The notes under the pieces are model-generated. The model did not search any database and was not told where the DNA came from. It was given only the letters and a program-made list of their open reading frames with translations. Positions 32,185 to 37,721 of a stretch of DNA of 64,000 nt are shown here, piece after piece (positions within the stretch are counted from its first letter, which is position 1; every line of letters begins with the position of its first letter). Position numbers and translations under genes: made by a program. This DNA comes from Oryzisolibacter sp. LB2S (GTDB taxonomy: Bacteria; Pseudomonadota; Gammaproteobacteria; Burkholderiales; Burkholderiaceae_C): positions 780,501 through 844,500 of the forward strand of contig NZ_CP160388.1 of assembly GCF_040732315.1 (NCBI RefSeq), given 5' to 3'.

Positions 32185-33120
32185 TCAGGCGTACTCGGCC
32201 AGCGCCTTCTTCATCTTCTTCATCGCCGCCACCTCGATCTGGCGGATGCGCTCGGCGCTCACGCCGTATTCGGCGGCCAGCTCGTGCAGCGTCATGCCGC
32301 CCGAGCCATCGTCGTTCACCTTGAGCCAGCGCTCTTCGACGATGCGGCGGCTGCGCGCGTCCAGGCCGGCCAGCGCCGTGGCAATGCCGTCGGTGGCCAG
32401 CATGTCGCGCTGGCGCGACTCGATCATGGCCGTGGGCTCATGGGCCGCGTCGGCCAGATAGGCGATGGGGCCGAAGGCCTGCTCGCCGTCGTCCGCTGGG
32501 GCCGGGTCAAGCAGCACGTCGCCGCCGGCCAGGCGCGTTTCCATCTCGATGACCTCTTCGCGCTTGACGTTGAGCTGCTCGGCCACGAGGTCGATCTCAT
32601 GCTCGGACAGGGTCTCGCGGTGCGTGTCGGCGTCGATGGCATCGGCCTTGAAGCCTTGCTTCATGGAGCGCAGGTTGAAGAACAGCTTGCGCTGGGCCTT
32701 GGTGGTCGCCACCTTGAACATGCGCCAGTTCTTCAGGATGTATTCGTGGATCTCGGCCTTGATCCAGTGCATGGCATAGCTCACCAGGCGCACGCCCTGG
32801 TCCGGGTCGAAGCGGCGCACGGCCTTCATCAGGCCCACGTTGCCTTCCTGGATCAGGTCGCCATGCGGCAGGCCATAGCCCAGGTACTGGCGCGAGATGG
32901 ACACCACCAGGCGCAGGTGCGACAGCACCAGACGGCCCGCGGCCTCCAGGTCGTTGTCGTTCTTGAGCTGCTGCGCGTATCGCTGCTCCTCCTCCTGCGT
33001 CAGCAGGGGCAGGCGGTTGACGGCCGAGATGTACGCGTCCAGGTTGCCCAGCGGAGGAACCAGGGCCCAGGGGTTGGCGGGCGCCAGCGTCGTCGCGGTG
33101 GAGGCAGTCTGGAGGTTCAT
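32185..33120 (-). CDS. rpoH: Heat-shock sigma factor RpoH (sigma-32)
   Basis: A 311-residue group 3 sigma factor. Region 2 is seen in LVLSHLRLVVSISRQYLG, DLIQEGNVGLMKAVRRFDP and SYAMHWIKAEIHEYI. The RpoH box QRKLFFNLR follows and identifies it as sigma-32, and region 4 with a helix-turn-helix (LHELAAEYGVSAERIRQIE) is at the end. The ATG at 33118-33120 has AAAGGA nearby. Its upstream region carries a perfect CIRCE operator, so HrcA repression is likely. A terminator follows the gene. Confidence 0.96.
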   Translation of the reverse strand: MNLQTASTATTLAPANPWALVPPLGNLDAYISAVNRLPLLTQEEEQRYAQQLKNDNDLEAAGRLVLSHLRLVVSISRQYLGYGLPHGDLIQEGNVGLMKAVRRFDPDQGVRLVSYAMHWIKAEIHEYILKNWRMFKVATTKAQRKLFFNLRSMKQGFKADAIDADTHRETLSEHEIDLVAEQLNVKREEVIEMETRLAGGDVLLDPAPADDGEQAFGPIAYLADAAHEPTAMIESRQRDMLATDGIATALAGLDARSRRIVEERWLKVNDDGSGGMTLHELAAEYGVSAERIRQIEVAAMKKMKKALAEYA

Positions 33121-33152
33121 GTCAGAAATCCTTTCTTCCATACAGGGGCATG

Positions 33153-33179
33153 TTAGCACTCTCTTGGAGGGAGTGCTAA
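33153..33179. promoter_or_regulatory. CIRCE operator (HrcA binding site) upstream of rpoH
   Basis: TTAGCACTC, nine bases, GAGTGCTAA: an exact match to the CIRCE consensus at 33153-33161 and 33171-33179. It is 33 bp upstream of the rpoH start and 55 bp upstream of the divergent cutA start. HrcA binds this element and releases it when GroEL is titrated by unfolded protein. Confidence 0.93.
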
Positions 33180-33233
33180 TCGCAAAGTTCCCCCGAGGGT
33201 GGTAGAACCGCAGCCTTTCTGGGGATTTGCGCC

Positions 33234-33560
33234 ATGCCTGACACCACGCCATCCATCGCCGTCGTGACCACCACCGTCGCCAGTGCCGCCGACGCCAGGC
33301 GCCTGGCCGCGGGCGCCGTGCAGGCGCGGCTGGCCGCCTGCGTGCAGGTGCAGGCGATTGACTCGCACTATGTCTGGCAGGGCGCGCAGCAGGAGGATGC
33401 CGAGTGGCGTCTGGTCTGCAAGACCCTGCCCCAGGCCGCGCCCGCGCTCTGCGCCTGGCTGCGGGGCCAGCACCCCTATGAGGTGCCGCAGCTGCTCACG
33501 CGCACCGAGCAGGCTGAAGCGGACTACGCCGACTGGGTGGTGCAGCAGGTGGATGGATAG
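33234..33560 (+). CDS. cutA: CutA1 divalent-ion tolerance protein
   Basis: A 108-residue CutA1 protein, with VVTTTVASAADARRLA at the start, AACVQVQAIDSHYVWQG in the middle and HPYEVPQLL near the end. CutA1 forms very stable trimers resembling PII proteins; the link to copper tolerance in E. coli is debated. It is divergent from rpoH and shares the gap with the CIRCE site. It is convergent with ftsY (24-bp gap). Confidence 0.92.
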   Translation: MPDTTPSIAVVTTTVASAADARRLAAGAVQARLAACVQVQAIDSHYVWQGAQQEDAEWRLVCKTLPQAAPALCAWLRGQHPYEVPQLLTRTEQAEADYADWVVQQVDG

Positions 33561-34768: not shown

Positions 34769-36202
34769 ATGAAACGCGCTATCACCCTTTTGGGCCTGCT
34801 GGCCTGCCTGCATGCGGGGGCACAGTCCGCATCGGCTTTCCCCACCGTTGCGCCGCTCGCCACGAACTCCACGGGGGCGCAGCTGTTCACTTTGAGGAAC
34901 GGCATGCAGCTCATCGTCCAGCCTGACCGGCGTGCGCCCACGGCGGTGCACATGGTCTGGCTGCGTGTGGGCTCCATGGACGAGGTCGACGGCACCTCGG
35001 GCGTGGCCCATGTGCTCGAGCACATGATGTTCAAGGGCTCGAAGAAGCTGCCGCCGGGCGAGTTCTCGCGCCGCGTGGCGGCCCTGGGCGGGCAGGAGAA
35101 CGCCTTCACCAGCCGCGACTACACGGGCTATTACCAGCAGATCCCGGCGAGCCGTCTGGCTGACGTGATGCGGCTCGAGTCCGACCGCTTTGCCCACAAC
35201 CAGTGGCCCGACGCCGAGTTCGCCAAGGAGATCGAGGTCGTCAAGGAGGAGCGCCGCATGCGCACCGAGGACCAGCCGCGCGCCGCGCTCATCGAGCAGC
35301 TCTACGCCTCGACCTTCATCGCCTCGCCTTACCGCCGGCCCGTGGTGGGCTGGATGAGCGACCTCGATGCCATGACGCCCGACGACGTGCGCGAGTTTCA
35401 CCGCCGGTGGTATGTGCCGCAGAACGCCGTCGTGGTGGTGGCCGGCGACGTGGAGCCGGCCCAGGTGCTGGCGCTCGCGCAGAAGACCTATGGCGTCATC
35501 CCCGAGCGCGCGCTGCCCGTGCGCAAGCCGCGCACCGAGCCCGAGCAGCAGGGCCTGCGCCGCATCGCCTTCAAGGCGCCGGCCGAGCAGGCCTATGTGG
35601 CGCTGGCCTTCCATGTGCCGGGCATCAAGCGCATAGCGCCCATGGATGCCGACGACCGCGACGCGCTGGCACTCCTCGTGCTCTCGGCCGTGCTCAGCGG
35701 CTATGACGGCGCGCGCCTGGAGCGCGCCCTCACGCAGGGCGACGACCGCGTGGCCGACAGCGCGAGCAGCCAGGCCTCCATCCTCGGGCGTGGGCCCTCG
35801 CTGTTTCTGATGACCGGCGTGCCCGCCGCGGGCAAGACCGCGGCCCAGGTCGAGCAGGCGCTGCGCGCCGAGCTCGCGCGCGTGGCGCGCGATGGCGTGA
35901 GCGCGGCCGAGCTCGAACGCGTGAAGACGCAGTGGGCGGCATCGACCATTTACGCGCGCGACTCGCTCTACAGCCAGGCGAGCGACCTGGGCAGCAACTG
36001 GGTGCAGGACCTGCCGCTGGACGCGGACGAGCGCCTGCTCCAGCTGCTGCGCGGCGTCACCCCCCAGGAGGTGCAGTCCGTGGCCGCGCGCTACTTTGGC
36101 GACGACCAGCTCACCGTGGCCACGCTGCTGCCCCAGCCCGTGGCACAGGGCGCGAAGAAGCGCGCCGCCCCCGCAACCGACGCCGGTGGGCGCATGCATT
36201 GA
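34769..36202 (+). CDS. M16-family zinc peptidase, catalytic member of a pair
   Basis: A 477-residue periplasmic protein with a signal peptide (to about residue 22). The inverted zinc motif HVLEH is at residues 81-85, and the third ligand glutamate is near residue 161 in EVVKEERRMRTED. The C-terminal half is the second M16 domain. Together with the next gene, which lacks the zinc motif, it should form a two-chain peptidase like mitochondrial processing peptidase. The substrate is unknown. It is divergent from ftsY. TAGAAT at 34751 is a possible -10 box very close to the start. Confidence 0.9.
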   Translation: MKRAITLLGLLACLHAGAQSASAFPTVAPLATNSTGAQLFTLRNGMQLIVQPDRRAPTAVHMVWLRVGSMDEVDGTSGVAHVLEHMMFKGSKKLPPGEFSRRVAALGGQENAFTSRDYTGYYQQIPASRLADVMRLESDRFAHNQWPDAEFAKEIEVVKEERRMRTEDQPRAALIEQLYASTFIASPYRRPVVGWMSDLDAMTPDDVREFHRRWYVPQNAVVVVAGDVEPAQVLALAQKTYGVIPERALPVRKPRTEPEQQGLRRIAFKAPAEQAYVALAFHVPGIKRIAPMDADDRDALALLVLSAVLSGYDGARLERALTQGDDRVADSASSQASILGRGPSLFLMTGVPAAGKTAAQVEQALRAELARVARDGVSAAELERVKTQWAASTIYARDSLYSQASDLGSNWVQDLPLDADERLLQLLRGVTPQEVQSVAARYFGDDQLTVATLLPQPVAQGAKKRAAPATDAGGRMH

Positions 36203-36330
36203 CATGCCACACCCCCCTGTGGCGCTGCGCGCCTTCCCCCCGCACTCGCTTCGCTGCGCTGCGCGGGCAGGGGGACGCCGCCGGTGCCGCGGGGCGGCCC
36301 TTGCACGGCGGCCCCCGCGTGGGGCGTCGT
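36203..36330 (+). repeat. Dispersed repeat family B, copy 2
   Basis: Starts directly after the stop of the first M16 gene. Blocks in order are ACCCCCCTGTGGCGC, CGCCTTCCCCCCGC, GCAGGGGGACGCCG and GGGGCGGCCCTTGCACGGCG. They match, in the same order, the minus strand of 8758-8857. It separates two genes whose products are expected to work together. Confidence 0.65.
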
Positions 36331-36350
36331 GACAGTGAAGGACAACGGAA

Positions 36351-37721
36351 ATGATCAAGATAATTAAATTGATAGCTGCTCGCGCTTTGCTGGTAAGCGC
36401 TGGAGCCGTTTTTTATGCCCAAAGCGCCTGGGCGCTGCTGCCGATAGAGCATTGGACGGAACCGAACGGCGCGCGTGTCTGGCTGGTCGAGAGCCCGGCC
36501 ATCCCCATGGTGGACGTGCAGGTGGACTTCGATGCCGGCGCGCGTCGCGACCCCGCGCCCCAGGCCGGACTGGCCGCGGCCGCCGCGCTCATGAGCTCCA
36601 AGGGCGTGACGGCGGGCGTGACGGTGGGTGGGGTGGACGAGCCCGCGCTCGACGAGAACGACCTCGGCGAGGCCTGGGCCGACCTGGGCGCGAGCTTTGG
36701 CGCCCAGGCCGGGCGCGACAGCTTCCAGTACGCGCTGCGCTCGCTCACCGAGCCCGACCTGCTCGAGCGCGCCGCACGTCTGGCCGCGCGCCAGATCGCC
36801 CAGCCGAGCTTCCCCGAGCCCGTGTGGACCAGCGAGCGCGCGCGCTGGAGCGCGGCCATCAAGGAGTCCTACACCCGCCCCGGCCCGGTGGCGAGCAAGG
36901 CCTTTGCCAGCGCCGTCTACGGCAGCCACCCCTATGGCCAGAAGCCCGACGAGCAGACGCTGGCGCGCATTGACGTGGCCGATCTGAAGGCCTTCCACCA
37001 GCGTGCCGTGAGCGCCTGCGGTGCGCGCGTGAGCATCGTCGGGGCGTTGAACCGGGCCCAGGCTCAGACCCTGGTGCGCCGGCTGCTGTCCCGCCTGCCC
37101 GAGCGCAGCGGCGCCGACTGCGCGCCGCTGGCCCCCGTGCCCGACGCGCAGCCGCTGCAAAAGCCGGTGCAGGAGTCCATCCCCTTCGCCGCCGCGCAGG
37201 CCCAGGTGTTGATCGGCCAGCTGGGCATTGCGCGGCGCGACCCGGACTTCCTCGCGCTGCTCGTGGGCAACCACATTCTGGGTGGCGGGGCCTTCACCTC
37301 GCGCCTGATGACCGAGGTGCGCGAGAAGCGCGGCCTGAGCTACAGCGTGTACAGCGACTTCTCTCCGGGGCTGAACCGGGGCGCCTTCGTCATCGGCCTG
37401 CAGACCCGGCCGGATCAGGCGGCGCAGGCCGTGCAGGTGGCGCATGACACGCTTGCGCGGTTTGTCGCCCAGGGCCCGACCGAGGCCGAGCTGCGCGCCG
37501 CCAAGGACAACCTCATCGGCGGCTTTGCGCTGCGCATAGACAGCAACCGAAAGCTGCTGGCCAATGTGGCCAACATCGCCTGGAACGGTCTGCCGCTCGA
37601 CTACCTCGAGCATTGGACGGACCGCGTGCAGGCCCTCACGGTGGCCGACATCCGCGCGGCCTTTGAGCGCCACCTGCAGCCCGATCGCATGGTGACCGTG
37701 GTCGTCGGGGGCCAGCCTTGA
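36351..37721 (+). CDS. M16-family peptidase-like protein, non-catalytic partner
   Basis: A 456-residue M16 homologue. Where the zinc motif would be, the sequence reads AGLAAAAALMSSKG, so it cannot bind zinc in the usual way. The C-terminal domain keeps the substrate-holding arginine/tyrosine motif in REKRGLSYSVYSDF. This is the pattern of the regulatory subunit in paired M16 peptidases. The N-terminal leader (about residues 5-22, LIAARALLVSAGAVFY) is encoded by a repeat of family A. The ATG is at 36351. rsmD follows with overlapping stop and start. Confidence 0.88.
   Translation: MIKIIKLIAARALLVSAGAVFYAQSAWALLPIEHWTEPNGARVWLVESPAIPMVDVQVDFDAGARRDPAPQAGLAAAAALMSSKGVTAGVTVGGVDEPALDENDLGEAWADLGASFGAQAGRDSFQYALRSLTEPDLLERAARLAARQIAQPSFPEPVWTSERARWSAAIKESYTRPGPVASKAFASAVYGSHPYGQKPDEQTLARIDVADLKAFHQRAVSACGARVSIVGALNRAQAQTLVRRLLSRLPERSGADCAPLAPVPDAQPLQKPVQESIPFAAAQAQVLIGQLGIARRDPDFLALLVGNHILGGGAFTSRLMTEVREKRGLSYSVYSDFSPGLNRGAFVIGLQTRPDQAAQAVQVAHDTLARFVAQGPTEAELRAAKDNLIGGFALRIDSNRKLLANVANIAWNGLPLDYLEHWTDRVQALTVADIRAAFERHLQPDRMVTVVVGGQP
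36365..36414 (+). repeat. Dispersed repeat family A, copy 6, inside an M16 signal sequence
   Basis: Reads TAAATTGATAGCTGCTCGCG, then CTTTGCTGGTAAGCGCTGGA and a GCC plus T run. It lies wholly inside the start of the second M16 gene, in the same frame as copy 5 in sco. Confidence 0.75.

Follow-up and report, generated by a model that had tools for sequence, protein, structure and literature searches.

The rpoH gene of Oryzisolibacter sp. LB2S, which encodes the heat-shock sigma factor, is preceded by a perfect CIRCE element that is probably (we put the likelihood at roughly 80%, judging from the sequence) the gene's own HrcA operator, built into its promoter region. Bound there, HrcA would shut both an extended -10 sigma-70 promoter and a sigma-E promoter, and a feed-forward loop through groESL and GroEL would belong to the same circuit.

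The rpoH-cutA locus

The window, meaning the whole stretch of 64,000 nucleotides that was analyzed, holds the following features around this site.

32,185 to 33,120, minus strand: rpoH, heat-shock sigma factor (sigma-32); NCBIfam TIGR02392 (rpoH_proteo), 389.5 bits against a cut-off of 323.1
33,129 to 33,134, minus strand: AAAGGA, likely rpoH ribosome site, judged from its sequence
33,150 to 33,158, minus strand: putative extended -10 box TGCTAACAT, overlapping the CIRCE right arm and reading toward rpoH
33,153 to 33,179, no strand assigned: CIRCE operator (HrcA site), a palindrome with perfect arms and a 9-base loop
CIRCE left arm, minus strand: weak -35 match TTAGCA, at 18-base spacing to the -10
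33,164 to 33,168, minus strand: sigma-E-type -10 box TCCAA, within the CIRCE loop and separated from the -35 by 16 bases
33,185 to 33,191, minus strand: sigma-E-type -35 box GGAACTT, by sequence match
33,234 to 33,560, plus strand: cutA, the divergent neighbor and probably no target; Pfam CutA1, 93.9 bits

The operator reads TTAGCACTC-N9-GAGTGCTAA with 0 mismatches, as the preliminary description had it, and it lies in the promoter region, the overlap with promoter elements being judged by sequence. It is the sole CIRCE match in the 64-kb window at up to 3 mismatches, where shuffled sequence gave a mean of 0.03. At the same threshold, the 3.84 Mb genome (one contig) has two in total, both perfect, one ahead of rpoH and the other ahead of groES (Cpn10).

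The rpoH ATG occupies 33,120 to 33,118 on the minus strand, which leaves 32 bases between it and the operator. A longer in-frame rpoH start at 33,252 was rejected because the conserved operator would then presumably fall within the gene and because the AAAGGA precedes the ATG at 33,120. On the far side, 54 bases separate the operator from the cutA ATG, in agreement with the figure of about 55 bp given earlier. The assignment of cutA rests on its Pfam match; two NCBIfam CutA models also match the product, below their cut-offs. Elsewhere in the window (34,769 to 37,718), two adjacent M16 peptidase-like genes lie by ftsY, the second of which matches only the Pfam "inactive domain" model.

Conservation of the operator and of hrcA

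The order-wide sample is made up of 59 genomes: besides our own, 6 from its genus, 28 from its family and 24 from its order. When up to 2 mismatches were allowed, 57 of the 59 had one CIRCE or more, mostly exactly two, while the control pattern (CIRCE read backwards) occurred once each in two genomes. The hrcA gene is present in 58 of the 59 genomes and rpoH was found in 57, for all of which the rpoH upstream region was examined. In genome G006 the rpoH match begins at a contig end, so the region was taken at the CIRCE match, and the rpoH start did lie in that stretch. With no more than 2 mismatches, a site stands ahead of rpoH in 54 of the 57 genomes, our own included. Such retention across the order places the CIRCE before rpoH far beyond chance.

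Some individual genomes depart from this pattern. Genome G043 (locus L042) has hrcA and only a 4-mismatch site before rpoH. At L065, which was counted among the three that lack a site within 2 mismatches, just 41 bases of contig precede the match. Genome G040, which is 68% complete, contains hrcA and yielded neither a CIRCE nor rpoH. In G053 (L086), the one hrcA-less genome of the 59, a genome-wide search allowing up to 2 mismatches found no CIRCE. This genome may belong to a Neisseria-like lineage. The only sigma-E-like box of G053 (L086/L089) is a 5/7 match, 236 bases upstream of where rpoH is estimated to start.

A second sample of 80 named rpoH loci was drawn as the best 80 of at least 589 matches, and the nearest named RpoH proteins among the matches listed are those of Diaphorobacter aerolatus and Acidovorax, a kinship that points to the Burkholderiales. 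A CIRCE with at least 14 of 18 letters precedes rpoH in 54 of these best 80 beta- and gammaproteobacterial loci. All 38 loci from L094 to L131, mostly betaproteobacterial by their titles, carry the site.

The earlier proposal called for hrcA to be sought in the genome, and a single copy was found, with both the DNA-binding and the C-terminal HrcA domains; the objection that the repressor gene might be lacking therefore fails. Among the named genomes, hrcA was searched for in 48 of the 80, which were picked after the site results were known; the 32 omitted are mostly MAGs among L094 to L131. Within these 48, drawn from the best 80 of at least 589 matches, genomes with the site have hrcA in 23 cases and lack it in 1, and genomes without the site have it in 3 cases and lack it in 21. 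Fisher's exact test gives 3.6e-9 for this association, a value that overstates the case since related species are not independent. The one site kept without hrcA is that of L151, a 1.7 Mb MAG. The three genomes with hrcA and no canonical site are L144 (Xanthomonas pisi), L158 and L169, and in L144 and L158 CAGTC/GACTG variants can be seen by eye at the place where the site is expected. Escherichia coli, included as a control, has rpoH and gave no hrcA match at E 1e-20.

Membership of rpoH in an HrcA/CIRCE regulon is thus indicated by an operator in the promoter region, an hrcA gene with a DNA-binding domain, and loss of the site along with hrcA, to which there are exceptions. Position, conservation and co-occurrence with hrcA strongly support the predicted action of HrcA on rpoH.

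Variant arms were observed upstream of rpoH in two Lysobacteraceae-type loci, L171 and L148, and by eye also in L144 and L158. They read TTAGCAGTC-N9-GACTGCTAA, with both arms changed in concert; the arms are perfect in L171 and one is imperfect in L148. Searching three genomes for this form at up to 2 mismatches returned one site in each, at rpoH in G079 and G091 and elsewhere in G075, with no second, groES-associated site in any of the three. Shifted HrcA specificity might account for the variant arms; with one site per genome and none at groES, this is only a guess.

A putative extended -10 box on the right arm

The 55 order-wide upstream regions that could be aligned on CIRCE (L065 and L086 were dropped) became 54 once the duplicate L088 was removed. 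Together with the named loci, from the best 80 of at least 589 matches, they make up 108 unique CIRCE-bearing rpoH upstream regions. Toward rpoH, the right arm of the operator extends as TGnTAnnAT in 100 of the 108, and the hexamers are mainly TAATAT (47), TAAAAT (27) and TAACAT (18). We read this continuation as an extended -10 box whose opening letters also belong to the operator, "extended -10" being the label that we take to apply to TGnTAnnAT. In our genome the matching TGnTATAAT-like box is TGCTAACAT. Because CIRCE is a palindrome, its opposite strand provides a built-in control, and there the AT continuation appears in 1 of 108. The same continuation is found in none of 15 groES sites (from 16 groES loci in L001 to L032, with L008 dropped for its short upstream region).

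Extended -10 promoters do not need a good -35. A plain scan for the two-hexamer sigma-70 consensus (9/12) found nothing between 33,000 and 33,400; the promoter was missed because its -35, TTAGCA at 18-base spacing, is weak. As the two-hexamer consensus is not reached, we describe the promoter as being of the extended -10 type only.

The strand asymmetry also bears on cutA, which had been put forward as a possible shared target of the site. With the cutA ATG so near, HrcA bound at the operator could block an overlapping cutA promoter. However, a CutA homologue was found in only 3 of 137 rpoH loci (our own, L057 and L096; some upstream stretches are short), yet the site is kept without cutA, and cutA was consequently rejected as its conserved partner. 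On the cutA side of the palindrome the -10 continuation is absent in 107 of the 108 loci, including our own, which reads TCG. The idea of cutA as a shared CIRCE target therefore goes unsupported, and control of the divergent gene by this site, either alone or with rpoH, is distinctly improbable, though a promoter of cutA might happen to overlap the operator.

A sigma-E-type promoter across the left arm

On the rpoH strand, a second set of promoter-like boxes reaches into the operator from the other side. The consensus for sigma-E (RpoE, ECF02-type) is, as we take it, GGAACTT followed by a spacer of about 16 and TCNNA. The pattern GGAACTT-N16-TCNNA occurs a single time in the window, at 33,164 to 33,191 on the rpoH strand, against an expectation of 0.03. 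Across the genome it occurs 3 times, compared with 11 for the pattern read backwards, so there is no genome-wide enrichment and it is the place of the pattern, not its number, that speaks. The box pair with its spacer is accompanied in the genome by an rpoE gene and, following it, a gene for an RseA-type anti-sigma factor; the RpoE match, at 237.9 bits, lies just over the cut-off of 236.15.

The same -35 box recurs across the 108 regions. Starting 9 to 22 bases before CIRCE, a GGAACTT match of at least 6/7 is present in 54 of them (shuffle mean 1.9, maximum 8) and one of at least 5/7 in 74 (shuffle mean 18.5, maximum 28). In those 74, the spacer to TCNNA is 16 in 48 cases and 17 in 9, and any other length between 8 and 25 occurs at most 4 times. 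When the offsets were permuted, so as to take account of the fixed TC with which the CIRCE left arm ends, the mean was 21.3 and the maximum 33 in 5000 trials, against the 48 observed at spacer 16. Both boxes, at a spacer of 16 or 17, are found in 58 of the 108 loci and in 30 of 54 among the whole genomes of the order. The sigma-E half of the arrangement is not universal, since a GGAACTT-like box of at least 5/7 is missing from 34 of the 108 loci with CIRCE, and shuffled sequence would itself be expected to give about 18 such boxes.

The boxes take up two main registers relative to the operator. With the -35 near -12, the arrangement in our genome and in many others of the family, the -10 lies at CIRCE positions 12 to 16, in the loop, and TCNAA is found there in 15 of 22 cases compared with 0 of 17 when the -35 is near -16. 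With the -35 near -16, the -10 begins at position 8 and takes in the final two letters of the left arm; an A at position 12 is then found in 12 of 17 cases, compared with 0 of 22. When the -10 was called independently of the -35, the two agreed on the register in 56 of 57 rows (17 of the 74 rows were not callable). On an RpoH tree of the 74 rows, all with frames verified by tblastn and nine of them short (the result is unchanged without these), the register changes about 5 to 6 times. Five independent pairs on supported branches gave a mean of 4.5 concordant and 0 discordant with a median p of 0.0625, and with so few pairs this test cannot reach 0.05. The register shift is partly due to shared ancestry, as the tree suggests.

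An alternative is that HrcA represses rpoH only through the extended -10 promoter, and that GGAACTT and TCCAA form no working promoter here. This would fit the 34 loci that keep CIRCE without a clear GGAACTT-like box, 31 of which keep the -10 continuation, and also the lack of enrichment of the box pair in the genome. Against it stand the preference for a spacer of 16, the joint shift of the two boxes, and the position of the window's sole such pattern at this very site. In Bordetella bronchiseptica, moreover, SigE transcribes the rpoH (fam) promoter region in vitro, according to the part of PMC3490749 available. We regard the alternative as unlikely, and a sigma-E promoter that is gated by the operator as the better reading.

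The groES operator

The second CIRCE of our genome is directly upstream of groES. Like the rpoH site it is perfect, and it is presumably bound by the same repressor. By eye, it is preceded by a sigma-32-like promoter, CTTGAAG-N13-CCTTATTA, the sigma-32 consensus used for the comparison being that printed in PMC545781, as far as that text was available. Unlike the rpoH sites, the groES sites lack both the -10 continuation and the sigma-E-type boxes, with GGAACTT at 6/7 in 0 of 15 and TCNAA at positions 12 to 16 in 0 of 15. In L001 (CIRCE at 1501 to 1527) and 14 more groES loci, the CIRCE mostly follows a CTTGAAA-like sigma-32 promoter that ends right at the operator, again by eye. As groES has a sigma-32-like promoter before its CIRCE, HrcA would repress sigma-32 at its source as well as one of the sigma-32 targets, and the second operator suggests a feed-forward loop.

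Proposed mechanism

HrcA needs GroEL, as is known from work in Bacillus. In the unstressed cell, HrcA aided by free GroEL would bind CIRCE. Occupying 33,153 to 33,179, it would cover the extended -10 sigma-70 promoter from its -35 to its -10 as well as the -10 and start of the sigma-E promoter, so that both are shut. The sigma-E start is predicted some 6 to 7 bases past TCCAA, at 33,157 to 33,158, and the sigma-70 start about 7 bases past TAACAT, near 33,143. Misfolding in the cytoplasm would titrate GroEL and release HrcA, allowing sigma-70 to transcribe rpoH. Should envelope stress occur in addition, sigma-E freed from RseA would be expected to yield more rpoH mRNA. Sigma-32 would then drive groESL, itself directly repressed by HrcA, giving a coherent feed-forward loop closed by GroEL. 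The single cascade of HrcA and sigma-32 outlined in the preliminary description was right as far as it went, and incomplete, as the same stretch also carries the sigma-E-type promoter and the extended -10 box.

An inverted repeat with arms of 9 bases could also form a stem if transcribed, and CIRCE might work as a hairpin in the leader of the rpoH mRNA, affecting stability or thermosensing, in place of a DNA operator. Both predicted starts lie within or past the right arm, however, so the transcript would lack part of the stem, and where hrcA is missing the site is mostly missing too. The hairpin was rejected because of the predicted starts, and we find it scarcely credible beside a DNA operator bound by HrcA.

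Relation to known systems

A 2003 survey of CIRCE in the same group by Permina and Gelfand, which by its title deals with heat-shock regulons of beta-, gamma- and epsilon-proteobacteria, reportedly lists rpoH among CIRCE targets in betaproteobacteria, as is probable. A CIRCE ahead of rpoH has also been predicted in Geobacter sulfurreducens (Rodionov 2004, PMC545781, Table 8). The operator and gene are the same and the distance is similar, the portion available listing the site at -51, compared with 59 bases before the ATG here. That entry, in the same portion, lists the site alone; what is added here is the overlap with the extended -10 and sigma-E-type boxes, the asymmetry between the strands, and the retention of the site across the order and in some Gammaproteobacteria. 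The HrcA-rpoH link is already known as a prediction, and the composite promoter/operator layout may be the new part.

Sigma-E-type promoters before rpoH have precedents in E. coli rpoH P3 and the Bordetella fam promoter (PMC3490749, in part), and the available text of a review (PMC5994319) describes RpoE regulating a heat-inducible rpoH promoter in B. pseudomallei. The words HrcA and CIRCE do not appear in the main text of the Bordetella fam paper (PMC3490749). In our genome the sigma-E-type -10 falls within the loop of CIRCE. The available parts of PMC3989490, PMC10696704, PMC10037100, PMC3224663, PMC11764788 and PMC3135505 contain nothing on a link between HrcA/CIRCE and sigma-E at rpoH; a table in PMC3135505 puts the number of HrcA at 0 in both Neisseria gonorrhoeae and N. 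meningitidis. More broadly, no description of an interleaving of HrcA/CIRCE and sigma-E at rpoH was found among the open-licence papers listed, a literature which was judged mostly by titles, the starts of abstracts and word counts and is weak evidence of absence; PMC2758279, which has the words CIRCE, rpoE and rpoH, fell outside this scope.

Implications for heat-shock control

It seems fairly likely that, in many Burkholderiales and several gammaproteobacterial lineages, the rpoH control region is one composite element, with letters that serve operator and promoter at once, the right arm supplying most of the extended -10 and the left arm or loop the sigma-E -10. HrcA would then gate the supply of sigma-32 from both sigma-E (envelope stress) and sigma-70 (basal), and the sigma-E promoter would have slid by about 4 bases along the operator with its own spacing kept.

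In E. coli, sigma-32 is controlled mainly through translation and stability. If the composite reading is true, a large bacterial group would set its sigma-32 level by transcription, via HrcA-GroEL and sigma-E. It would also offer a compact and testable example in which a single repressor gates two sigma factors and in which promoter and operator evolve within shared letters. A stretch of about 40 bases appears to merge two stress circuits.
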